In this document: piece by piece, positions 1,954 to 26,937 of the stretch
Position numbering within the stretch: the first letter of the stretch is position 1
Layout: every line of letters begins with the position of its first letter
Virus record (IMG/VR): IMGVR_UViG_3300021976_000054
Span: 1-31,842 of that record
From: a virus
DNA length: 31,842 bases
Reading direction: 5' to 3' (one strand)
The notes under the pieces: model-generated
The model's database searches: none
Told to the model about the DNA's origin: nothing
What the model saw: the letters and a program-made list of their open reading frames with translations, nothing else
Translations under genes and position numbers: made by a program

Positions 1954-2738
1954 TATTTCACCTGCACCAAATCTTCTAAGGCGACTGAGCGGAATCCTTC
2001 GGGCGATATGAAAGTGAGGATCGCTCTGCCAGCGCTTCCAGTTTCTATTTTGTTGTGCTTCACCCCGGCTACCCGGGTCGTTTCGTAACTCTCAGAAATG
2101 TTGTTCCACCAGGTTAACCGTCTTCCGCGCACTGCGTTGAGAATCTCGTCGTCGTACGCCTCTTCGATATCAAACGGCAACTTGACCTTGAGCGTGCGCC
2201 GAATCGGCTCCTCTCGTTTTACCTTATGCGTCTCTGCTGGCTGCATGTGCGGTTGCGGTGCCGGCTGCTCAAGCATTCGTCGGGCGTCCGATTCGTTGCG
2301 CAGGTTGTTGAACGTCCCACCGTCAATCCCGTACTGCGGAACGTGCAGGATCTTTTTGCCCTCCCAGGCAATCTCGACTACCTCCGTCCCGCGCATCGCC
2401 TTGACGACAACCGCGCCATCCTCTTCGAAGAACTCGATATCCCAGCCAGCCTGCTCGGCCGCGTCCATAAACGCGTCGGCCCGCTCGTTCCCGCTCGAAT
2501 CCTCCTCTGAGAACAACTCGTCTGTGCAAGCGCGGAAGACGGTCATCTCCGCGAAGGCGTCAAGTTCTTCCTCCGTGGTTGGCTCGAACTCTTCCCAGAT
2601 GGTCACGAGCGCATCGTCTTCGTCTTCCACATCAATCTCGAAGACGAGTCCGGCCTCAAGCTGCGCCCGGAGACCCTCGCATCCCCGGGCGTGCACATGC
2701 ACGGTGCCGTCGGCCGCTTCCACGTAGTGCAGGATCAC
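1953..2738 (-). CDS. Hypothetical acidic protein, 261 residues
   Basis: I place the start at GTG 2738 (protein begins MILHYVEAADG) because it forms a GTGA overlap with the stop of the upstream gene and has GAGGG upstream. Farther upstream candidates read through the previous gene in a shifted, arginine-rich frame. The first half is very acidic (runs of D and E around residues 45-110). The second half has a basic linker and a predicted beta-rich C-terminal segment (residues ~190-260) ending SVALEDLVQVK. No catalytic motif is visible and I do not recognise the family. An acidic DNA-mimic or adaptor role is possible but unsupported. Confidence 0.75.
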   Translation of the reverse strand: MILHYVEAADGTVHVHARGCEGLRAQLEAGLVFEIDVEDEDDALVTIWEEFEPTTEEELDAFAEMTVFRACTDELFSEEDSSGNERADAFMDAAEQAGWDIEFFEEDGAVVVKAMRGTEVVEIAWEGKKILHVPQYGIDGGTFNNLRNESDARRMLEQPAPQPHMQPAETHKVKREEPIRRTLKVKLPFDIEEAYDDEILNAVRGRRLTWWNNISESYETTRVAGVKHNKIETGSAGRAILTFISPEGFRSVALEDLVQVK

Positions 2739-3031
2739 CCAGCACCCTCTTCCCAGCGCTGCATGGCTTGCTCGCGCACTGCCGGCACGTTCGGCGAGTA
2801 GGGGTCCGTGATCACAGCTATCGCGTACGCGACGCCTTGTGCTTGGCCTCGTAGCTCGCCCCACATCTTATATCCCTCGCATAGGACCCCAATTGCGATC
2901 GAAGGCAAGTCCTCTTTGGGTTTGTCCGGTTCATCCTCGCTCATGAGCTGGTCGATGATTGAGTCGAGTTCCTCCCAGAGGATCTCCAGGAGGCTACGCC
3001 CGGCGGTCAGCGTCTTCAGGACCTTCGGCAT
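2735..3031 (-). CDS. Hypothetical protein, 98 residues
   Basis: Start ATG at 3031 (MPKVLKTLTAGR) is set by GGAGGAG four bases upstream. The protein looks helical: an N-terminal amphipathic segment with acidic middle (WEELDSIIDQLMSEDEPD), then a hydrophobic segment and a helix ending VREQAMQRWEEGAG. Its 5' end overlaps the C-terminal coding part of the 43-residue membrane protein by 38 bases in another frame. Its stop joins the next gene by GTGA. No known family recognised. Confidence 0.75.
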   Translation of the reverse strand: MPKVLKTLTAGRSLLEILWEELDSIIDQLMSEDEPDKPKEDLPSIAIGVLCEGYKMWGELRGQAQGVAYAIAVITDPYSPNVPAVREQAMQRWEEGAG

Positions 3032-3125
3032 CGAACTCCTCCTTCCCGCTCGGCCAGCAGATTGCGCCAATCAGCGCGGCGATCACAGCGACAGCGATCC
3101 AGAAGGCTAGTTCGTATCCATCCAT
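2994..3125 (-). CDS. Single-pass membrane microprotein, 43 residues
   Basis: ATG at 3125 shares its A with the TAA of the preceding microprotein (TAATG). The sequence MDGYELAFWIAVAVIAALIG shows one hydrophobic helix (residues ~6-25), followed by a charged tail of about 20 residues, so an N-out/C-in inner membrane microprotein is likely. Its last 38 bases overlap the next gene's start, and the Shine-Dalgarno of that next gene (GGAGGAG) lies inside this frame. Function unknown. Paired membrane microproteins are common in phage early regions, where some alter the host envelope. Confidence 0.6.
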   Translation of the reverse strand: MDGYELAFWIAVAVIAALIGAICWPSGKEEFDAEGPEDADRRA

Positions 3126-3223
3126 TAGATAGCTCCAAAGTATCCGAGGAGGAAAAACAAGAAGGTTGCGATTGAGAGCAGAAGAACAAGACCCCGACCG
3201 ACGAGAACGAACAAGTCGAACAC
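3125..3223 (-). CDS. Membrane microprotein, 32 residues
   Basis: GTG at 3223 overlaps the upstream TAG (TAGTG) with AGGGGA just before it. The protein, MFDLFVLVGRGLVLLLSIAT followed by a phenylalanine- and leucine-rich segment, is almost entirely hydrophobic and fits one membrane helix. It ends by a TAATG junction with the next membrane microprotein. Junctions on both sides and the strong membrane character support a real gene despite its size. No function assigned. Confidence 0.6.
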   Translation of the reverse strand: MFDLFVLVGRGLVLLLSIATFLFFLLGYFGAI

Positions 3224-3495
3224 TAATTTCCCCTTTGGGCCTTGTCGATTTCTTCGAGCAGAAGCTTGCCGAGTCGACTAGTCGTCGGAGTGATGAAAAA
3301 TCCTATTTGGACACTCCCAAAGAATCCCCTAGGAGTTTCATGCTCTACCTCGTACTTGACAACTTCACGCTCGGGCCGGTTCTTATCGCGCACGACACAG
3401 GCGCCCTTGATTCGAAGATCAAGCCGAGTGAACTCCTCAGGCATTGAGGGAGGGTCCCAGTCTAGATCTTCCATATCGAAATCGTCGTCGCTCAT
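3223..3495 (-). CDS. Hypothetical protein, 90 residues
   Basis: ATG at 3495 overlaps the stop of the DUF2786-like gene (ATGA). The N-terminus is strongly acidic (MSDDDFDMEDLDWDPP); the rest looks like a compact beta-rich fold with hydrophobic strands near residues 27-75. It is flanked by coupled junctions on both sides, so translation probably follows the 341-residue gene. No family recognised. Confidence 0.75.
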   Translation of the reverse strand: MSDDDFDMEDLDWDPPSMPEEFTRLDLRIKGACVVRDKNRPEREVVKYEVEHETPRGFFGSVQIGFFITPTTSRLGKLLLEEIDKAQRGN

Positions 3496-4517
3496 GAGAT
3501 CTCCTTCTTCGTGCTGTCGGGGCTGACCTTCGTGGCTCCGAGGTCAACCTGTTGGGCCGCTGCGGAGCCGGCAGCTCGCCCGGCTGCGTCCTGTCGCTTC
3601 GCCTGCTCGCGCTCCCACCGAGCCGCGTTCTGCTCACGCTCGCGCTTCTCTCGACGTTCCTGTGCGGCACGCTGTGCGGGAGTCATCTTCTCGCGCAACG
3701 CTGCTTCGGCAGCATCTCGCTCGGCTTGCTCCACATCGGACATCGGACGGAGGTGCGGGAACATCTCGTAGTAAGCTTCATTGACATCGGCGAACCGATC
3801 CCGAAGTGCCACCGCGCTGCCAGCCGTATTCGAGACGACGTCTTCCGCTGCGGCGCTTTGGGCCGCAAGGCGGTAGCGGATCGTGCGCTGGAAACCCTCC
3901 GCGTAGGCCGCTCGGTAGGCCGCGTGCCGTTGTGTGTGTGGCTGGGGATCAACACCTTCGAGTTTGCATTGCCGACGGTACGCAGCCTTCAGCTTGCCGT
4001 CGTTCGGGGCGCAGGCGAAACCGTGCCCGTTCGCCTGGACAGCGATCTCGCCCCACTTGCGTCCGGCCTCTTTGAGGATCTTGATATTCTCGTCAGCCGG
4101 ACGGCTCGCGTCCCAGGACGGATCGAGCTTCGACACGAAGGCAAGATAAGTCGAGGTCCAGAGCAACCGGGCGTACTCGACGTCGGCCGGAAAACCGACA
4201 ACCGTCGCTTTACCGCCCCAGGCCCGAATAATGGCCTTGCAACGAGCATGTGAGACGATGGAAAAGAGCATAAATGAAAGGTCGTCTTCGAAAGCATGCT
4301 CTTCCGGAAACGCGATATCGACCGAGACCGGGGTTTCGCGCTCGTTCTTCGGCCGGCTCTGTTCCAGCAAAGCGGCGTCGATCGCGTACTTCACCATCAT
4401 CTTGTCAGCAAGCGCTAGTGCGGCGTCCGCGCTGCCGTGCTCCCCGTGTCGACGAAAGTCTTCGGCCTTCTCTACCAGCTTCGAGACCTTGTCGAGGATG
4501 TGCTTAGGCGTGTCCAT
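3492..4517 (-). CDS. DUF2786-like protein
   Basis: A 341-residue protein. The N-terminal ~45 residues (ILDKVSKLVEKAEDF, then an alanine-rich helix ending MMVKYAID) match the pattern of the DUF2786 domain, two short helices found in many phage and bacterial proteins of unknown role. A middle domain (residues ~60-225) contains conserved-looking Trp and Cys residues. The C-terminal ~90 residues are a long charged helix rich in Ala, Arg, Glu and Gln, probably coiled coil. The start ATG at 4517 lies directly after the GGGT-N3-ACCC element (4518-4528), and a hairpin (4544-4577) separates it from the previous gene. It leads a coupled run of small genes down to about 1038. Function unknown. Confidence 0.75.
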   Translation of the reverse strand: MDTPKHILDKVSKLVEKAEDFRRHGEHGSADAALALADKMMVKYAIDAALLEQSRPKNERETPVSVDIAFPEEHAFEDDLSFMLFSIVSHARCKAIIRAWGGKATVVGFPADVEYARLLWTSTYLAFVSKLDPSWDASRPADENIKILKEAGRKWGEIAVQANGHGFACAPNDGKLKAAYRRQCKLEGVDPQPHTQRHAAYRAAYAEGFQRTIRYRLAAQSAAAEDVVSNTAGSAVALRDRFADVNEAYYEMFPHLRPMSDVEQAERDAAEAALREKMTPAQRAAQERREKREREQNAARWEREQAKRQDAAGRAAGSAAAQQVDLGATKVSPDSTKKEIS

Positions 4518-5108: not shown

Positions 5109-6284
5109 TCAGATTTGAAGGAGTAACGCCGCCAAGCTAGCCATGTGCAGCTGTGACGATCGGAATCCATACGGGGCTATCTCGACCGGGGATTCTAACA
5201 GTGCGGCGTGGTGCTTCGTGTGCGCGAGGATGGTCTCATGGATGGAGGCGCGAAGCCCTTCGTCGATAGTCATGTTCCGGAACTCATACAGTCGGTCGAA
5301 GTAGACCGCAACGAACATCTGGTCGGATCGCCCCAGATGCTCTGGATTGTAGAACCGCAACGCGGCAACCGCTGTCCTCTCGGCCTCAGCAAGGTAGAGG
5401 GGCTGTCTAGTGGCCTCATGCAACAACCCACCAACGTGGATCATAACCCCCTGCACATATGGATACTTGCTGCGGTTAACTTCACCGTTGGCGTGAATAC
5501 CCTCGCGGTAAAGGTTGTCCTCGTCGCGCATCGACCGGCGGAGCCCATCATAGGCCTCCATGGCGAAATCTAGGTTATCCCTGTATCGCTCTCCAGGTGA
5601 AATTCGATTAATCATCAATGCAAGTTCGATAGCGGTAACGGCCGCAACGGTGCTGAGACTGTGGTTGCGGGTTTCGAGCTCTTTCTTCGCTTCCTGGCGC
5701 TGATCTTTCCAAAACACCAATCCAGTTTTCGGATCGTAGTTTCTAGTCGCAATATCCAACATTGCCTGCGCCTCTGCTGGTGCGGTCTCGTCTGGAACAT
5801 CCCCAGAGCGGCCCTGGTGTTCATACTGGAGCATTCGCAACTCCGCAGCCCACATGCCATCATCAATGTACCGCGACGTCCAGGGGTGGTCCTTGTCTCC
5901 AAGCGATGCTGCGTATCCCAGCGACTCCTCGTCAGCATCCCAATAAGCCCCAACCAAGACCGCAATCTGCTCAGAATCCAGGCCATTCTCAGCACCAGGA
6001 GCGAGTTGGTTGAAACGGTCGTGAGCCATTCCTGCTAGGCTGGCACCCCACGAAGCAGAGGCCAATGGACTACCTTCTGTCCGTTCTACCCAAACCCGAC
6101 CATCGGTCTCGAAGCGCATATGCCCTGCGAGATTCGCGGCGGCAATTTCCGCCATTGCCTGGTAATTCGTATCAATGACGGGAGGTGCGATTTTCATCGT
6201 CGCACTTCCTACGTTGACAGACCCAATAGAAATCCCTGAAAGAAGGATGGAAATGAAGAGCATCCCTCCCATAAATCTCTTCAT
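5109..6284 (-). CDS. Secreted GH76-like glycoside hydrolase (alpha-1,6-mannanase family)
   Basis: A 391-residue protein. Start ATG 6284 (MKRFMGGMLF) has AAGGA eight bases upstream and begins with a signal peptide: basic n-region and hydrophobic core at residues 9-20, with cleavage likely near 28. The rest looks like an (alpha/alpha)6 barrel with GH76 hallmarks: YIDDGMWAAELRML (paired Asp 141-142, the position of the catalytic aspartates in GH76 endo-alpha-1,6-mannanases), YDPKTGLVFWKD near 183, and YPYVQGVMIHVGGLLHEATR (274-293), matching the family's Y-x-Q-G-V motif. GH76 enzymes cut alpha-1,6-mannan backbones. In a mycolic-acid host the substrate could be lipomannan or a related polymer. 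It follows a coupled set of secreted and membrane microproteins, unlike a tail enzyme. Another six-hairpin glycosidase family is the main alternative. Confidence 0.7.
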   Translation of the reverse strand: MKRFMGGMLFISILLSGISIGSVNVGSATMKIAPPVIDTNYQAMAEIAAANLAGHMRFETDGRVWVERTEGSPLASASWGASLAGMAHDRFNQLAPGAENGLDSEQIAVLVGAYWDADEESLGYAASLGDKDHPWTSRYIDDGMWAAELRMLQYEHQGRSGDVPDETAPAEAQAMLDIATRNYDPKTGLVFWKDQRQEAKKELETRNHSLSTVAAVTAIELALMINRISPGERYRDNLDFAMEAYDGLRRSMRDEDNLYREGIHANGEVNRSKYPYVQGVMIHVGGLLHEATRQPLYLAEAERTAVAALRFYNPEHLGRSDQMFVAVYFDRLYEFRNMTIDEGLRASIHETILAHTKHHAALLESPVEIAPYGFRSSQLHMASLAALLLQI

Positions 6285-6285
6285 G

Positions 6286-6636
6286 TCATTTTCCTTCAAT
6301 CTGCTTGCGGGCCTTGGCCGCCTTGCTACGGACGTTGGAGGCAACTTTCTTGTTGCCTTCGATCTTCTTGAGAGCACTGATGGTGTTCTTGCGCTGGCGC
6401 TTGTTCTTCGCCACCTTTTGGATCTTGTTCGCCTTGATGCCTAGGAAGCCGTAGAACTCGTTCACGAACTCCGCGTCTTCCGCTGTGCCCTCTTCAATCT
6501 CGCGGGCAACGGCCTCGTGGCGAATCTTGTCGTTGTACGCCTGCTGGCGCGTCGCCTTCTGCACCTTGGCGATGTCCGCACGGTCCCTCGCGGCCTGGGA
6601 CTTCTTGGCCGGATCGCTCCAGTTGAATATCGGCAT
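6286..6636 (-). CDS. Small basic helical protein, 116 residues
   Basis: ATG at 6636 follows the GGGTATAACCC element by two bases. The protein is rich in Lys, Arg, Ala and Gln with almost no predicted strands (KKSQAARDRADIAKVQKATR), and ends in a strongly basic tail (KAAKARKQIEGK). That composition suggests nucleic-acid binding or a charged coiled coil. Only one short hydrophobic stretch (NEFYGFLGIKAN) is seen. Its stop lies one base before the GH76-like start, so the two are probably co-translated. No family recognised. Confidence 0.75.
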   Translation of the reverse strand: MPIFNWSDPAKKSQAARDRADIAKVQKATRQQAYNDKIRHEAVAREIEEGTAEDAEFVNEFYGFLGIKANKIQKVAKNKRQRKNTISALKKIEGNKKVASNVRSKAAKARKQIEGK

Positions 6637-9611: not shown

Positions 9612-10505
9612 TTAAGGAGTCCCAGGGACGGGTCCGCCCGTTACCCAAGGATCGAGACCAGGCTGGGCGCCCCAGGGAATACTATCGACGAACCTCTGGG
9701 GCCGCTCGTGCGCCTTCGCGCCGTCTGCCGCGAGACATGCCCATTCGTCAGGATGCATGTGCCGACGACGCGTCCCGTCCGCATCAGAGACGCACATAAA
9801 CAATGCATCCCCATAGTTGTAGTTCTTACCAGGAACCTTCGTGGTGCTGTCCCCATGAACGAAGAAAACCTTCGCCATTTCTTCCTCCTCTGACATTGGG
9901 GTTGTTGGTGCGTTACTAGGCATAAATGAAATTGCCAGATCCATCAGGAAGCCGCCCGGGTCCCAATGCTCGTCTCCGTCCGTCAGCAACGCGCCGTTGT
10001 CCGCGAGGCCTGGAACATGCTGATGTCCGATCCAACCCGAGTAGTTCCGGAGCGACGTCGGCCGCAACCGGATTGGCGAACGCTTCGAGGCGAGCACGAT
10101 TCCTTCGTTGGACCGGTAGAACCGCAAGTGCTGACGGGGGATTCCGACAAGATCTTCGAGCGGCTTGAGCACGTCTTCCGCGATGTATCGATAGTACGCG
10201 TTCGGCCACAGATGAGAGCGTCCCGCAAACCCTACTAACTCAACTTGGATAATGTACTCATCGTCGGACTCACCACTACGGAACGCATACGAGCACCGAT
10301 TTAATGCGACGTATTGGTGCTTCGTGCGTTTGGCCGGATCATACCCGAGGTGCGGCGGATAACGCCCGTACGCGGCTTCCGCGCCTGCGAGTGTTGATCC
10401 TTCGGTCGTGTGTATGCACCCCTTCGGATGCTTCACCTCATCGAACGTACCGCCGTCTGGCCCGAGATCTTTCCGGGTCCAGCCCGGAATCCAGATATCT
10501 GCCAT
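9612..10505 (-). CDS. Endolysin, N-acetylmuramoyl-L-alanine amidase type
   Basis: A 297-residue protein. Amidase_2-like motifs are clear: CIHTTEGST (zinc ligand His 32), HQYVALN (63-69), IQVELVGFAG (86-95), and GHQHVPG (160-166) followed by HWDPGGF (180-186), giving the second His and the zinc-binding Asp 182. These enzymes cut the bond between MurNAc and L-Ala in peptidoglycan. Residues ~210-297 form a separate C-terminal part with Trp, His and Cys (MHPDEWACLAADG), perhaps a wall-binding domain, not a known LysM or SH3 repeat. There is no signal peptide, so export depends on the holin that follows. ATG at 10505 overlaps the stop of the collagen-like gene. Confidence 0.85.
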   Translation of the reverse strand: MADIWIPGWTRKDLGPDGGTFDEVKHPKGCIHTTEGSTLAGAEAAYGRYPPHLGYDPAKRTKHQYVALNRCSYAFRSGESDDEYIIQVELVGFAGRSHLWPNAYYRYIAEDVLKPLEDLVGIPRQHLRFYRSNEGIVLASKRSPIRLRPTSLRNYSGWIGHQHVPGLADNGALLTDGDEHWDPGGFLMDLAISFMPSNAPTTPMSEEEEMAKVFFVHGDSTTKVPGKNYNYGDALFMCVSDADGTRRRHMHPDEWACLAADGAKAHERPQRFVDSIPWGAQPGLDPWVTGGPVPGTP

Positions 10506-11155
10506 TACCCAACCTTCTTACAGAGAAGCCAGTCTTCCTCATCGCCCGTACCGTCAATTGCGTCCGGACCAAAGTAATGGAACTCCTGCGCCGTGTAGCC
10601 GTCTCGGCATTCCGGCCCTGGCGGCCCTGGTTCACCCTGGGCACCTGGGACTCCGGTTTCGCCTTGGGGTCCCTGGACGCCCTGCTCTCCAGCCGGCCCC
10701 TGTTCGCCTTGGGGACCGAAATCACCTGTTAGCCCTGGCTCGCCGATCGTCCCAGGGAGACCTGCGAGCCCCGGTTCACCTTGCTCGCCCGGTTCGCCCT
10801 GTTCCCCCTGTTCGCCTTGGGCCCCGGTTTCGCCTTGCTCGCCCCTTTCACCCGCTGGTCCGGGGACACTATCGACTCTCTCGGGAATCTCATTGTTGGC
10901 GGCGGCAATGCAGTCTGCCTGCACGCTGGCAGCTAGGGTTTCTACCGGGGCCGCATCACAAGTCGCGTTAAGGGAATCCTGAATATCGACGAGGATCTGA
11001 CGATTGGCGCTAGCGGCATTAGAGGAGTCTGTCCAGAGAATAACAGCGACAGCCATAACCGAAGCGATACCGATTACCATGATGCCGTTTAGAAACCTCT
11101 GGCTGATTCGCTGCCTTTGAAGACTGAGCAGCTTTTGTCCTTCCTCACTCATCAT
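10505..11155 (-). CDS. Membrane-anchored collagen-like protein
   Basis: A 216-residue protein with three parts: a cytosolic N-terminus and one membrane helix (residues ~21-43, FLNGIMVIGIASVMAVAVIL), a spacer with two cysteines, then about 28 uninterrupted Gly-X-Y triplets (residues ~98-183, rich in GEQ and GEP), and a C-terminal ~34 residues with two more cysteines. Gly-X-Y tracts form collagen triple helices; in phages they are usually tail-fibre parts. Here the membrane anchor and place between a membrane coiled-coil protein and the endolysin suggest an envelope protein in the lysis region. Start is one of two adjacent ATGs (11155 or 11152). Whether it enters virions or acts at lysis is unknown. 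Confidence 0.8.
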   Translation of the reverse strand: MMSEEGQKLLSLQRQRISQRFLNGIMVIGIASVMAVAVILWTDSSNAASANRQILVDIQDSLNATCDAAPVETLAASVQADCIAAANNEIPERVDSVPGPAGERGEQGETGAQGEQGEQGEPGEQGEPGLAGLPGTIGEPGLTGDFGPQGEQGPAGEQGVQGPQGETGVPGAQGEPGPPGPECRDGYTAQEFHYFGPDAIDGTGDEEDWLLCKKVG

Positions 11156-20813: not shown

Positions 20814-21110
20814 CTACCCCTTCAGCTTAGCCATAGGATCTCGGTAACGCTTCTTTTCCTTAGTCCCAAGCCAGCGAGTTAATGTCTCCTGGATCTTCTG
20901 GTTCCGCATCGCCGCGCTAAGCGGTTTCTTTCTCTTGCCCTGCTCGGTTGCCTTTTCCAATGCTTCGTCGAGTTGGGTTCCGAAATGCATAACCGCTCGG
21001 TCCAGGTGGTAAGCCGATACCTTGTCTGGAAGCCCGAGGAGATCAGAGGGGCGGCTCTGATACGCCTTCGCTAGATTCCACATCTCCCACAGGTTCGTCG
21101 GCGTCCTCAC
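20814..21110 (-). CDS. Tail assembly chaperone extension (frameshift product)
   Basis: This 98-codon frame overlaps the end of the upstream chaperone in the +1 frame and ends immediately before the tape measure. Its sequence (LWEMWNLAKAYQSRPSDLLG, then YHLDRAVMHFGTQLDEALE) matches the second part of actinophage tail chaperones (lambda GT equivalent). The GTG at 21110 lacks a good Shine-Dalgarno site. Shifting +1 at TTT-CGT (21114-21109) would join the first 156 residues of the upstream protein to these 98, giving a ~254-residue fusion. Such fusions bind the tape measure while the short form supports tail-tube assembly. Confidence 0.8.
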   Translation of the reverse strand: MRTPTNLWEMWNLAKAYQSRPSDLLGLPDKVSAYHLDRAVMHFGTQLDEALEKATEQGKRKKPLSAAMRNQKIQETLTRWLGTKEKKRYRDPMAKLKG

Positions 21111-21579
21111 GAAATTTTTCGAGATCCCCGCTGTTCCCGAGTGCGTAGTTGAAGATGAACATCTTGTCTGTGAAGTTGATCGAATCGGTATAAACTAGAC
21201 CATCAACTTTCCTCGCCTCGTCGATCTTGCCATTCGCGTCGCGAGGCGGCACAGAAAGAGCCGGTTTGACAACGGTGTAGGCGACCACAGTCTCAACAAC
21301 CTGGCCGAATTCCTTCATCTGCTCCGGCTTGTCGAGAAGGGTCCTCATCGCCTTAGCATCAACCGCATCGGCGATCTTCGGGGTCGGACCGGCATTCGGA
21401 ACGAGTTCCTCCGAGACGATGCTCGTAAGGAAATCGACCTTGTTAAGAATTCCCTCGGCAAGCAGATCTACCATATCAACCTTGCGCACGAGACAGACCT
21501 GCCCAGAAGGACAGGTCAAATCCTCGCCCGTATTTCCCCAAGCCGTAGCGGCATACTTATCTTCAGTGGTGGATGGCAT
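21043..21579 (-). CDS. Tail assembly chaperone (lambda G equivalent)
   Basis: A 178-residue protein (MPSTTEDKYAATAWGNTGED) placed between major tail protein and tape measure. AGGAGAG precedes the ATG. The C-terminal ~22 residues after the putative shift site are acidic and Ser/Glu-rich, as is common for the unshifted form. Its last 68 bases overlap the downstream frame that encodes the extension. Role: keep the tape measure in solution and guide tail-tube polymerisation; not found in the mature virion in studied phages. Confidence 0.85.
   Translation of the reverse strand: MPSTTEDKYAATAWGNTGEDLTCPSGQVCLVRKVDMVDLLAEGILNKVDFLTSIVSEELVPNAGPTPKIADAVDAKAMRTLLDKPEQMKEFGQVVETVVAYTVVKPALSVPPRDANGKIDEARKVDGLVYTDSINFTDKMFIFNYALGNSGDLEKFREDADEPVGDVESSEGVSEPPL
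21108..21120 (-). promoter_or_regulatory. Putative programmed +1 frameshift site
   Basis: Minus-strand zero-frame codons GAA AAA TTT CGT. A P-site Phe tRNA on TTT can re-pair with TTC after a +1 slip, entering the frame GTG AGG ACG. TTT-CGT is the same slip pair as in the influenza PA-X +1 site. A -2 slip on the A-run is an alternative. Confidence 0.6.
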
Positions 21580-23040: not shown

Positions 23041-23457
23041 CTAATCGAGATTCCTTACGGCACAGCGGTACGTCGAATACCTAGTCAATGTATTGTACCC
23101 GTCGTCGAAGAGATCGCCCGAATCTCCGTCCCAGGTAGGAGCGGTTAGCCGCCACCCGTCCGCGCCGTCACGATGCTCGACGGAATGCATCAACTCCTTC
23201 GCCCGCAACATAAGCAAGTCAATCTTCCCATAGTCCTGCTCTTTCTCTTTTGGAACATGGAACCAGATTGCCACTCGGCTGGCCCCAATGCCCTTAAAAG
23301 ATCGAGCTGCTTCCTCAAATCTGATTACGAGGAACATTCGAGTCCTATCAGGACTGTCCGTCGCGTTCGAGGCGAAGATAACCGTCTCGTCAATATCCAG
23401 CATGTTCATCTGGCTATCTGTCCCGAGTAGACTCGCGATAGCCGCCCGTGCGCTCAT
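23041..23457 (-). CDS. Tail terminator-like protein
   Basis: A 138-residue protein directly before the major tail gene block, where the tail terminator is usually found. Mixed alpha/beta with a long helix around residues 78-95 (YGKIDLLMLRAKELMHSVEH) and strands on both sides, consistent with tail-terminator folds of the lambda gpU type. ATG at 23457 with GAAGGG upstream. The assignment is by position and fold pattern; a neck connector is the alternative. Confidence 0.65.
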   Translation of the reverse strand: MSARAAIASLLGTDSQMNMLDIDETVIFASNATDSPDRTRMFLVIRFEEAARSFKGIGASRVAIWFHVPKEKEQDYGKIDLLMLRAKELMHSVEHRDGADGWRLTAPTWDGDSGDLFDDGYNTLTRYSTYRCAVRNLD

Positions 23458-23459
23458 GG

Positions 23460-23825
23460 CTAGCCCTTCGGCAGATTCTTCATGATCTTCGAGATCAGAG
23501 CTTTCAATTCGGCAGCAGCGATCGGGATCGTCGGCCGGACGATCGCGTAACGACCGGAGAACCGCACCTCTAGCCAGATCCCATAAGACATCCCGTGCGA
23601 CAGCACCATCTCATGCACAGTGCCTTCGTGCTTCGTCGCCGTGAAGAGGCTGCCTCGGGCGTTGCCCGTTCGGTCAGTCCACCGCGCATTCGTCTTCATC
23701 GATATCTCGCTACGAGTTGCCTGGTAATCCATAGCAGCGGCAACACCTTTATTCATTCGGTCGTTGAATGAACCAAGTTCTCTATCGAGTTCTCGGGTGT
23801 TGATGCGGAAACCTCCCCTAGGCAT
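23460..23825 (-). CDS. HK97 gp10-like connector/tail completion protein
   Basis: A 121-residue protein starting MPRGGFRINTRELDRELGSF at ATG 23825, with AAGGAG eight bases upstream. The segment with NARWTDRTGNARGSLFTATK is a signature of the HK97-gp10_like family, which completes the head-tail joint. It overlaps the previous connector gene by eight bases and is followed by the tail terminator-like gene, the standard order. The N-terminal extension up to 23843 is not needed. Confidence 0.8.
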   Translation of the reverse strand: MPRGGFRINTRELDRELGSFNDRMNKGVAAAMDYQATRSEISMKTNARWTDRTGNARGSLFTATKHEGTVHEMVLSHGMSYGIWLEVRFSGRYAIVRPTIPIAAAELKALISKIMKNLPKG

Positions 23826-24990
23826 GGTCCGGGCTCCTTCCATACGAGATCACGAGACCTTTGCGCTCGTATCCATTGTAGGACACCATGTTCTCGATTA
23901 CTAGTCGTTGGCCGTCTTCGGTCTCCCACTCGTCGCCAACTTGCATTGTCGAATCCCACTCGCCCAGGAGTGTGTAGTCGTACCGACGCTGCACTCCGGA
24001 GTCCGACGTGGCAGCGGCCGACGTCGACATGCGCGGCTCTTCGGTGTGGCTCCTAGGGATGAGTCGGAGCATCTGTTGCGGTCGAGGCACACCTTCGTCG
24101 AGCGCGTAGCCGCCAGAAGGCTGCCGCACCCGTACGTTCGGAATCAAGGCGATGTAAATTGGGTTCGACGCGATAAATTCCCGGGTCAACGCCCGTTGCT
24201 GATCTAGTTCCATGGCTGGCCCCCTATTCCTAGTCATGACGAATCTCGGCAGGATGATAATTAGCTCGCCTGCGAGATCGAGGTCTACTCCCCCAAATAC
24301 CAACATTTCCATGCCTGGCATCGCACCCGTGAGGATACCCGATCCAGAGCCAACCGCGATAATTCCAGAGCCCATTACTGGCAAGGCAGCGGACAACGTC
24401 CCGCTCGATCGGGCAACGGCGCCCAAGTCGCTCGTAAACTCAGGCATTATGGCAAAGAAGTTGTCGTTCGTCTCGACTGTCCCGAGTAGACCAGCGCCCA
24501 TAATCGGCAGCAGAGCAACTAACTCGCCCGTACCTTCGCCAACCCCATTAAATAGCGCGCCCATAACAGGCATACTTGCCGACAACAGTCCGCTCGAAGT
24601 CCCGACACCTGAAAGCCCAGAAAGCATCATAGGCATATCGGCAACGAGTTGTCCGCTGGCTTGGACGAGACCGTCTAAATCCGCTGTGAACTCAGGTAAG
24701 GAAGCCCCGACTTCCGCCGTGGCTCTGGCGACCCCGATAAAGCCGGCCGTGAACGCGAACATCGTGACTTCGAGATCGCCCGATGCCGTACCGACGCCGT
24801 CAAGATCAGAAACGAATTCGGGCATCGTGGCGGCGATGCCGCCGCTCGTCTTTGCGGTCGCGGCAAGCCCAGACGTGAACTCAGGCATGTCAGCCACAAG
24901 AGCGCCAGAGTTAACGGTCGCTGTTTTCGACAGCACCCGCCTACGCGGCCTGATATACGCGTAGGTGGTGTCTACTCGAAACAGCCCCAT
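23818..24990 (-). CDS. Connector protein with N-terminal 21-residue tandem repeats
   Basis: A 390-residue protein in two parts. Residues 29-240 are ten tandem repeats, nine of exactly 21 residues and one of 23, of the form G-x-L-x-A-x-M-P-x-F-x-S-x-L-x-G-V-x-x-x-S (for example GQLVADMPMMLSGLSGVGTS), with an eleventh partial copy. Alternating hydrophobic residues suggest a beta-solenoid or beta-hairpin array. Residues ~260-390 are a connector-like domain: MELDQQRALTREFIASNPIY, then YDYTLLGEWD and LVIENMVSYNGYERKG. An internal ATG at 24213 has AGGGGG seven bases upstream, so a 131-residue connector might also be made alone. Start ATG 24990 has AGGAGG seven bases upstream. The repeats may project from the neck as fibres. 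Confidence 0.75.
   Translation of the reverse strand: MGLFRVDTTYAYIRPRRRVLSKTATVNSGALVADMPEFTSGLAATAKTSGGIAATMPEFVSDLDGVGTASGDLEVTMFAFTAGFIGVARATAEVGASLPEFTADLDGLVQASGQLVADMPMMLSGLSGVGTSSGLLSASMPVMGALFNGVGEGTGELVALLPIMGAGLLGTVETNDNFFAIMPEFTSDLGAVARSSGTLSAALPVMGSGIIAVGSGSGILTGAMPGMEMLVFGGVDLDLAGELIIILPRFVMTRNRGPAMELDQQRALTREFIASNPIYIALIPNVRVRQPSGGYALDEGVPRPQQMLRLIPRSHTEEPRMSTSAAATSDSGVQRRYDYTLLGEWDSTMQVGDEWETEDGQRLVIENMVSYNGYERKGLVISYGRSPDHA
24271..24906 (-). repeat. Array of ten 63-69-bp coding repeats
   Basis: Nine units of 63 bp and one of 69 bp encode the 21-residue repeat of the connector protein. DNA copies have diverged while MP-x-(F/M), L and G positions are kept, so the array is old and under protein-level selection rather than a recent expansion. 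Confidence 0.85.
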
Positions 24991-24992
24991 GG

Positions 24993-25472
24993 TCAGACCT
25001 CCTGAACCCAGACAGTGCCACTCATGGTCAGGTCGTCAGCAACAGCAGTCTTCAACCGCACGCACATTCTGGTGTCTCCAGAATTGCATCGCGGACGCAT
25101 GATTTCGGGCAGCACCAACATCAGGCCAGCGCGAACGTTGAATGTGTCGGAGAACATAATTACTTCAGTGCCAGTCGTTGCGACCGTGGCATTTACCGTC
25201 TCTGCCGTGAAGCCAGGCGCGGGATCGGCAGAGTTGAGAGGAACCAAGGCTGCCGGTGACGCTCCGCCACTGCCAGACGTTGCATATCCTCGACAAATTG
25301 AGTACGAAATCATCTCATCTTGCGCATCGCCGATCTCGCTCTTGTTCCCTAGCGACAATGCGACGATCTCGATAGGTCGGTTTGAAGCTGGGGTAAGTTC
25401 GAAAAGATCATAATCGCCCGATGCTGCCGCAACGGTTTGCTCGAAGAAGCTAACCGCGTAAATTCTTGGCAT
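24993..25472 (-). CDS. Probable virion protein, 159 residues
   Basis: ATG at 25472 follows GAGGAAAG. The protein is beta-rich with one Cys pair region (RPRCNSGDTRMCVRLK) and reads as a small jelly-roll-like structural protein: IEIVALSLGNKSEIGDAQDE, later LMLVLPEIM. Position between the LamG protein and the repeat-connector suggests a decoration or minor virion protein. No family recognised with confidence. Confidence 0.65.
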   Translation of the reverse strand: MPRIYAVSFFEQTVAAASGDYDLFELTPASNRPIEIVALSLGNKSEIGDAQDEMISYSICRGYATSGSGGASPAALVPLNSADPAPGFTAETVNATVATTGTEVIMFSDTFNVRAGLMLVLPEIMRPRCNSGDTRMCVRLKTAVADDLTMSGTVWVQEV

Positions 25473-25478
25473 CTTTCC

Positions 25479-26183
25479 TCACATTTGGAGTAGGGCGCCG
25501 AGGCGCATTTGCTTGTCGCGCTTGAGCGCGTCGGAAAGGACCGCACCACCAAGCGACGGATCAGTTTCAGCCGAAAGTGCGGTCGACCCCGCTGTGAGAT
25601 TCCGGCCGTTGCCTGAGCTGTCGGTCAAGCCCGCGCTAGAGAATCTCCAGTCAGCCCAAAGGTTCGTAACCCGAACCGGAGTAGCCGACTGGCTTTCTGC
25701 GGCTATCTCAACATCGGAAAGTACCGCAGTCCAAATTCGCTCATAAGCAAGAGCTCCGGCTAGCCACTCAGAACCGTCCGCAGCTGACCTGGCAAACCAG
25801 GCCAATCGGTCGGCAGTCCCGGCAGCGGCAACTGTTCCCGTTACCTTAGACAGGGTGCCTGGAACAGTTCCATAGAGAAGTTGCGCCGCTCCAGCGTTGA
25901 GAGTAGCGGCGACGTACACCCATGTCGCTAACGCCTGCTCTGGCGCGACGATGCCTGAAGTGTTCGAAGGCGAATAGACACTAGGGGTCCGACCATTCGT
26001 TCCTTTGAATCCCACGATCCAACTAGACGCGTCTCCAGAGTTAACCGATAACCGGATAATCGGGTTGAAGCTACCGAGTCCAGCCGAATCGATCCTTGCC
26101 CACCCGGCGATCGTCAACGCTGCGGTCGCCGGGGCAGAGCCCAAACTGACGCGGTCAGTTGCAGCATCCGAACGCGCGGCCAT
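25479..26183 (-). CDS. LamG/concanavalin-like domain protein
   Basis: A 234-residue protein starting MAARSDAATDRVSLGSAPAT. The pattern LTIAGWARID, then WVYVAATLNAGAAQLLYGTV, then ALAYERIWTAVLSDVEIAAE is that of LamG-type concanavalin A-like domains, which bind carbohydrates. This domain in the connector region rather than in tail fibres suggests a virion surface protein that may bind sugars of the host or environment. ATG 26183 follows the previous stop by a few bases; GGGAG lies about eleven bases upstream. Confidence 0.75.
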   Translation of the reverse strand: MAARSDAATDRVSLGSAPATAALTIAGWARIDSAGLGSFNPIIRLSVNSGDASSWIVGFKGTNGRTPSVYSPSNTSGIVAPEQALATWVYVAATLNAGAAQLLYGTVPGTLSKVTGTVAAAGTADRLAWFARSAADGSEWLAGALAYERIWTAVLSDVEIAAESQSATPVRVTNLWADWRFSSAGLTDSSGNGRNLTAGSTALSAETDPSLGGAVLSDALKRDKQMRLGALLQM

Positions 26184-26186
26184 TAG

Positions 26187-26612
26187 TTACGCAGCTCCCA
26201 AAGGCATCGTGATTGTGCCGCCGGTGATCGAGAGAGCGAGGCCGACCGAAATAGTCGTGGTGTTGAGTTCAAGGTTCCCGCCTCCTGCTGTCGCACTGAC
26301 CGTTCCGTCAAAAACGGGCGCCCCTGCGCTATCTGCTGCCCGGAACCATGCCGCTGCACCAGCAGCTACGCCTACGGTGTCGAGCGTCGGGCTCGCATCG
26401 ATCGTCTTGACACCGACAAGGGCGGCACTGAAAGCCGGGTCTGCCAACGTGAACGTCGCGAGCAGCGTTACCGCGCCGATCGCCGTATCTGGGTTGGTCG
26501 GCTGTGCTCCGGTGTAGATCTTTATAGTGCCAGCCGTGCCGACGTCCAACAAGTCAATAGCCGCGTTAGCCGCTGCATTGCGCGCGGCTACCGCAAGTCG
26601 AAATCCTGCCAT
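26187..26612 (-). CDS. Probable virion protein, 141 residues
   Basis: I choose ATG 26612 (MAGFRLAVAARNAAANAAID) because AGGAGAG lies eight bases upstream; an in-frame upstream extension overlaps the previous gene. The protein is beta-rich: AGTIKIYTGAQPTNPDTAIG, then ATFTLADPAFSAAL, then AAWFRAADSAGAPVFDGTVS. Proteins of this pattern occur widely in phage structural regions without assigned function. It is probably a decoration or minor head/neck protein. Confidence 0.7.
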   Translation of the reverse strand: MAGFRLAVAARNAAANAAIDLLDVGTAGTIKIYTGAQPTNPDTAIGAVTLLATFTLADPAFSAALVGVKTIDASPTLDTVGVAAGAAAWFRAADSAGAPVFDGTVSATAGGGNLELNTTTISVGLALSITGGTITMPLGAA

Positions 26613-26613
26613 A

Positions 26614-26937
26614 TTACACTCTCCTAATCGGACGGCTGAACGAAGTTGCACCAGGCTGGTTCTCGGGGTTCTCGGCTTCGGACGCGCCCCGGTAGTACGC
26701 GGCGAGCGCTTTCGCGTTCTCGAAGATCTGGGAAAGCTTGCGCGAGCTGCCCGATTCGGAAACGTCTGCCATTGTCGAAGATCTGCTCATTCGATATTCC
26801 CAATACCTACGAGCGATCTCATTAGGCGTGTCTCCGTCGTCCAGAGCCGCGCCGATTTTCTCGTTCGTCCATCCTGACTCGGCGGCATCTGGCCCGAGCA
26901 TGTCCAGGACTTCCTGGATATCTTCCGGGGCGGCCAT
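26614..26937 (-). CDS. Small helical protein in connector region, 107 residues
   Basis: First gene after the internal terminator; ATG 26937 follows AAAGGAAC. Helix-rich: EDIQEVLDMLGPDAAESGWT, then IARRYWEYRMSRSSTMADVS, then FENAKALAAYYRGASEAE. This layout (short helical protein with a WxYR segment, directly after the capsid genes) resembles small head-tail connector-region proteins, but I cannot name the family with confidence. Confidence 0.7.
   Translation of the reverse strand: MAAPEDIQEVLDMLGPDAAESGWTNEKIGAALDDGDTPNEIARRYWEYRMSRSSTMADVSESGSSRKLSQIFENAKALAAYYRGASEAENPENQPGATSFSRPIRRV

Follow-up and report, generated by a model that had tools for sequence, protein, structure and literature searches.

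In-frame fusion of a 21-residue repeat array to a head-to-tail stopper, with a putative nested start, in an uncultured siphovirus-like phage

The window studied here is the whole of the IMG/VR virus fragment IMGVR_UViG_3300021976_000054, 31,842 nt (31.8 kb) in length. Its minus strand carries, in order, genes for a head morphogenesis protein, a scaffold, a phrog_5042 protein, the major head protein, several unknowns, a phrog_5274 protein, a phrog_3758 virion protein, a LamG protein, a 159-aa protein and an ORF in which an array of repeats runs into a stopper domain. A Neck1-like protein, a tail terminator, a major tail protein with Fn3, chaperones and the tape measure follow, and the phage is siphovirus-like. 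The features around the array-stopper ORF are collected in Table 1. Further along, in the tail region upstream of the tape measure, two overlapping ORFs (20814-21579, minus strand), one of 178 aa and one of 98 aa that matches the phrog_6778 tail assembly chaperone, carry GAAAAATTTCG in their overlap, which probably marks a programmed frameshift like those known from tail assembly chaperones.

Table 1. Features of the array-stopper locus and its neighbours in the window
Feature	Position	Strand	Basis or remark
Probable head-tail adaptor gene	26614-26937	-	phrog_5274, which has no name in PHROGs; assigned from gene position
Cassette member, phrog_3758 virion structural protein	26187-26651	-	Also in L151, and beside LamG+array genes in L141
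Cassette member, LamG-like lectin-fold protein	25479-26183	-	C-terminal part resembles the array-fused LamG domain of L141
Cassette member, 159-aa protein of no recognised family	24993-25472	-	
Array-stopper long product, 390 aa: cap at the N-terminus, then the 21-aa repeats, then the head-to-tail stopper	23818-24990	-	
N-terminal cap, residues 1-26 (MGLFRVDTTYAYIRPRRR...)	24913-24990	-	Kept in L001 and L128
Repeat units 1-10 (residues 27-238), all of 21 aa apart from one of 23 aa	24277-24912	-	Anchor spacing
Degenerate eleventh unit, residues 239-259 (LAGELIIILPRFVMTRNRGPA), running into stopper	24214-24276	-	Anchor spacing, alignments
Putative internal Shine-Dalgarno AGGGGG, 6 nt ahead of internal ATG (24213)	24220-24225	-	-11.6 kcal/mol
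Head-to-tail stopper domain, residues 259-389; proposed separate 131-aa short product from internal ATG at 24213	23818-24213	-	phrog_4904, Foldseek, homologue starts
Tail completion / Neck1-like protein, start overlapping the stopper's end	23460-23843	-	phrog_5 (E 3e-4), synteny
Probable tail terminator	23041-23457	-	phrog_4995, named by synteny

Residues 259-389 of the long product are a head-to-tail stopper. They match phrog_4904 with an E-value of 4e-29, and a tblastn search returned 143 phage records in which, among the matches listed, the C-terminal third alone was covered; many of these matches, in Gordonia and Microbacterium phages, are named head-to-tail stopper, with E-values for named stoppers as low as 6e-13. 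The AF2 model of this part has pLDDT values of 80-92 for most of residues 258-386, except 315-334, and its best PDB match in Foldseek was phiCD508 (E 1.2e-4), with the T1 stopper, SPP1 gp16, Douge, a gene transfer agent, FCWL1, Bxb1 and lambda also recovered. The domain thus shares its sequence family and fold (phrog_4904) with SPP1 gp16, the phage T1 stopper and the phiCD508 neck protein, and its gene occupies the position of known stoppers, between the adaptor and the Neck1/tail terminator pair and ahead of the major tail protein. The homologues found in phages are free-standing genes of ~120-135 aa, likewise placed between an adaptor-like gene and the Neck1/tail-terminator pair. These lack the 258-residue N-terminal extension of the window's protein, in which array and stopper share one frame with a putative nested start. 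The original prediction of a connector protein with an N-terminal addition is therefore borne out, and the connector can be named more specifically as a stopper. No relative of the stopper was found in the bacterial genomes searched.

The extension is highly periodic in length. Eleven [ML]-[PF]-x-[FM] anchors occur in the 390-aa ORF (residues 35, 56, 77, ... 224, 247), separated by 21 residues nine times and then by 23. Repeat identity reaches 0.27 at a lag of 21 and 0.34 at a lag of 63, whereas the maximum at any lag in 2000 shuffles was 0.19. The earlier description of nine exact 21-residue repeats plus one of 23 consequently holds for length and not for sequence, the units being only ~27% identical to one another. 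Tandem Repeats Finder reported no DNA-level repeat at the array, on which ground a recent DNA-level duplication was rejected as its origin. Neither Pfam nor PHROG searches over residues 1-258, nor a PDB sequence search with the array, gave a match, which agrees with the earlier view that no named domain has this repeat.

Whether these units adopt a regular fold was assessed by modelling, and the outcome depended on the alignment supplied. With the full-length protein and a shallow alignment of eleven sequences, AF2 left the array unfolded (pLDDT ~30). With 24 arrays aligned in phase, a set that takes in possibly convergent repeats, the mean pLDDT was 70.7, rising to 75-81 in the middle units, with a pTM of 0.55 for the monomer, and a pattern of strand(7)-turn-strand(4)-turn-bridge recurred every 21 residues. 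The array is predicted from this model, with moderate confidence, to be beta-solenoid-like with one coil per repeat, so that the beta-solenoid first suggested for it is recovered with the deeper alignment and not with the shallow one. Such an arrangement would resemble the stacked short strands of parallel beta-helix and beta-solenoid proteins such as tailspikes and beta-helical antifreeze proteins, which also have one coil per repeat, but the array shows no sequence match to proteins of the PDB and no significant structural one (best E 1.0). Viral fold libraries also gave no significant match, the best-looking being an uncharacterised protein of an uncultured phage (A0A6J5NPS6, TM 0.56, E 0.04). 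Since the modelling covered the monomer alone, the array may possibly form a homo-oligomeric fibre. It is very improbable, in our judgement, that the periodicity is simply low-complexity sequence with neither structure nor function: the array is rich in Ala, Gly and Ser and predicted with low confidence in the full-length model, but the shuffle test, the regular prediction obtained with the deep alignment and the fixed phase seen across other loci (below) all speak against this.

The array also occurs well beyond the window. A first DNA pattern, comprising four TGCC...T units, was swamped by antisense collagen-like sequence, and loci were retained only with support from an iterated profile HMM of array units. 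Applied to the fetched loci, this profile showed that arrays with the 21-residue phase recur in over 20 viral loci; 230 of the 302 anchor spacings were exactly 21, the others being 19-24. A second DNA pattern gave 41 matches in bacterial genomes, for which the HMM passed solely contigs from Nonomuraea, Streptomyces and Micromonospora, including those of the actinobacteria Nonomuraea indica, N. basaltis, Streptomyces solincola and Micromonospora craterilacus. Many of the arrays in other loci are preceded by N-terminal LamG or beta-rich domains. Neighbouring genes, examined for a subset of loci, place several arrays between head and neck genes. The array gene of L091 is flanked by the major head protein gene and by one that weakly matches a head-tail adaptor; with the latter it has an ATGA overlap, and this locus appears to be the split state, the array gene not being fused to the next gene. 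Arrays also lie between an Ad1 adaptor gene and a DUF6093 gene (L083), between a head protein gene and a DUF6093 gene (L039) and downstream of a head-closure Hc3 gene (L022). L055 has, on the minus strand, an array joined in frame to another neck protein, the head-tail adaptor (phrog_783, E 8e-57), and an in-frame ATG marks where the two meet. The neck location is not universal, however, given that the arrays of L144, L079 and L062 lie near terminase or tail genes (upstream of terminase in L144, beside baseplate-type genes in L062). Judged by sequence, and going beyond the original prediction, the array appears to be a widespread phage module without a name that is not limited to connectors, although the similarity among arrays could be partly convergence, given that the repeats are Ala- and Gly-rich. 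tblastn searches of annotated phages with repeat-only queries gave no match, probably through the low-complexity filter.

Fusion of the array to a stopper was found in five loci, namely the window, L001, L128, L127 and L151, of which four are clearly diverged. L001 is 83% identical to the window overall. In the stopper part alone, identity to the window is 54% for L128, 64% for L127 and, over residues 6-130, 56% for L151. The four relatives come from other metagenomes and share the architecture, and an assembly artefact was rejected as the source of the fusion for this reason. Repeat number, which the original prediction had proposed comparing among related phages, does vary, with L001 carrying one unit more than the window. 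The N-terminal part varies more widely still: the cap is ~26 aa in the window, L001 and L128, whereas L127 and L151 have in its place a beta-rich domain of ~200 aa that is lectin-like by eye. A relative of the L151 cap domain is found in a large hypothetical protein of mycobacteriophage Thibault, beside minor tail and lysis genes.

Where the array is missing, as in L129 and Troll4, the phrog_5274 gene lies directly next to the stopper gene, and the L129 product is 40% identical over 89 residues to that of the window. In the window, a cassette of ~2.4 kb (phrog_3758, LamG, the 159-aa protein and the array) splits this gene from the stopper. L141, another array locus, has phrog_3758 as well as LamG domains that join directly onto arrays, its LamG domain being 36% identical over 75 residues to the window's, and phrog_3758 is also present in the adaptor-stopper interval of L151. 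In L152 the stopper is free, and phrog_2647, a head-decoration protein, occupies the same interval together with a large ORF. From these comparisons of gene order the adaptor-stopper interval looks like an exchange site for decoration genes. This cassette, with a LamG gene, around the array-stopper gene is a further point that the original prediction did not include. The large ORF of L152 (609 aa; 2139-3965, plus strand), just upstream of the free-standing stopper, looks to be of BNR/sialidase type by eye, and an ORF of 443 aa from the same interval of L151 (1261-2589, plus strand) combines a Thr/Pro-rich linker with beta-helix-like-looking sequence; neither has a PHROG match.

An in-frame start is present at the homologous domain boundary, where free-standing stoppers begin, in all five fusions (a TTG codon in L001), and it is preceded by a very strong putative ribosome-binding site that is conserved in the relatives. 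Shine-Dalgarno strength, taken as the duplex energy with the 16S anti-Shine-Dalgarno, is -11.6 kcal/mol for this start in the window and in L001, -13.8 in L128, -10.9 in L127 and -10.8 in L151. In the window, where real gene starts average -7.0, a signal of this strength precedes only 1.1% of the 366 in-frame internal start codons; the corresponding figure in the other fusion loci is 0-1.6% of internal starts per locus. The boundary start of the L055 adaptor fusion has a moderate signal of -6.6. The longest run of identical codons between the window and L001 comprises 15 (codons 245-259; permutation P 0.02 for such a run anywhere in 300 codons) and reaches right up to the internal start. A protein-level constraint on the Arg/Gly-rich linker is an alternative cause of this run, although the three versions of the sequence (RNRGPA, SGRGIRR and STRRYRD) differ in their residues. 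Shine-Dalgarno energies are no proof of initiation and the start is putative, yet it probably releases a free stopper, which is again a point beyond the original prediction.

Such a gene would have precedent in phages, as lambda C/Nu3 and lambda S107/S105 are in-frame nested genes in which one frame with two starts likewise gives long and short products with a common C-terminus. To our knowledge there is no such example for a head-tail stopper, and the open-licence full texts searched describe neither a nested stopper start nor a 21-residue repeat on a stopper, although such absence is weak evidence. The start signals could also be read differently. If the array were carried by every stopper subunit, giving the virion a full set of whiskers, the internal start would be a relic of a once separate stopper gene. 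This reading would suit the long frame, unbroken in all five loci, and the first start, whose own Shine-Dalgarno (AGGAGGT, -11.5 kcal/mol) is likewise very strong. A relic signal would be expected to decay, however, and this one is kept among stoppers 54-64% identical to the window's and falls, in the window and L001, at their longest stretch of unchanged codons; we therefore regard this reading as possible but rather unlikely. Less likely again is that the array is a separate virion protein freed by proteolysis, or the long form a minor by-product, with the short stopper alone mattering in the neck. Whilst this would fit the strong internal start and the related array proteins encoded as separate genes, a stop-less in-frame fusion in five of five array-stopper loci, together with the adaptor case of L055, is hard to explain if it were useless.

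Taken together, these data lead us to favour a two-product neck gene, making both a plain stopper and a stopper with an N-terminal solenoid whisker that would assemble into a mixed ring for glycan-binding display, and we would put the probability of this model at roughly 0.55. The array would be the last gene of the cassette which, having no stop codon, would read in frame into the stopper gene, the latter retaining its own ribosome-binding site and start. Initiation at the first start would give the 390-aa whisker-bearing stopper and initiation at 24213 the plain 131-aa form. Stopper rings of long-tailed phages are hexamers, and long and short stoppers may co-assemble in one ring with few rods per ring; only some subunits would then bear a whisker and the channel would be uncrowded. 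Since the array continues directly into the predicted N-terminal helix of the stopper (258-275), it would leave the ring at this helix, close to where adaptor and stopper meet, as a stiff beta-solenoid-like rod whose coils would each take up 21 residues. This rod would probably serve as a spacer displaying the cap, or its large beta-rich counterpart in L127 and L151, and possibly the neighbouring LamG protein. The displayed parts may weakly bind a host-surface or environmental glycan, and such a use, whether in spacing or in binding, is the least supported step.

Comparison with known necks offers parallels in place and role. Fibres project from the neck in T4 (fibritin) and in A-1(L), whose gp82-gp81-gp80 fibre ends in a carbohydrate-binding module, to which the proposed whisker may be likened, and the N-terminal helix of a hexameric A-1(L) neck protein hooks the ring above (PMC10966104). 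However, these fibres are separate proteins (trimeric in A-1(L)) on a collar ring and do not form part of the stopper chain, they are not reported to contain a 21-aa repeat, and no homology to them was found, whether by Pfam and PHROG over residues 1-258 or by PDB sequence and fold searches with the array. In phage 812, decoration proteins on the outside of the neck contact the N- and C-termini of the stopper and touch a putative whisker density which could not be assigned, a position like that proposed for the array, but they are separate globular dimers, whereas in the window the repeats are fused to the stopper (PMC12886913). A reinforcing role at neck interfaces is suggested for these proteins (PMC12886913), and the array might similarly be no free whisker but act as a brace against the neck, the portal vertex or the tail, strengthening the joint or recruiting cassette proteins during assembly. 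The stable unit length and mildly hydrophobic character of the array are in keeping with a brace; the wide variation in cap (26 aa as opposed to ~200 aa) and repeat sequence is a better fit to an exposed display rod, and the module also occurs in unrelated proteins, so we consider a brace unlikely.

Extending the two-product model to other phages, the 21-residue beta-solenoid repeat may be a modular rod inserted in the head-neck region and fused to a stopper or adaptor, with the nested start setting the number of fibre-bearing subunits per neck ring. This wider scheme is tentative, and we would give it somewhat less than an even chance. Neck whiskers and decorations are common on phages but seldom tied to genes, and a repeat covalently fused to a stopper or adaptor may provide a sequence signature for neck appendages in uncultured phages. 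The nested start would suggest a simple genetic route by which a symmetric ring could combine plain subunits with ones that carry a fibre.

Two other proteins of the window, both encoded on the minus strand, were noted during this analysis. A 216-aa protein (10505-11155) has a hydrophobic N-terminal segment and a collagen-like GxY stretch (GEQGEPGEQGEPG...), within which lie the sole tandem repeats that Tandem Repeats Finder reported (10761-10852). A 422-aa protein (5109-6377) weakly matches glycosyl hydrolase family 76 in Pfam (E 4.6e-5, narrowly short of the cut-off) and is possibly a tail-associated glycan-degrading enzyme.
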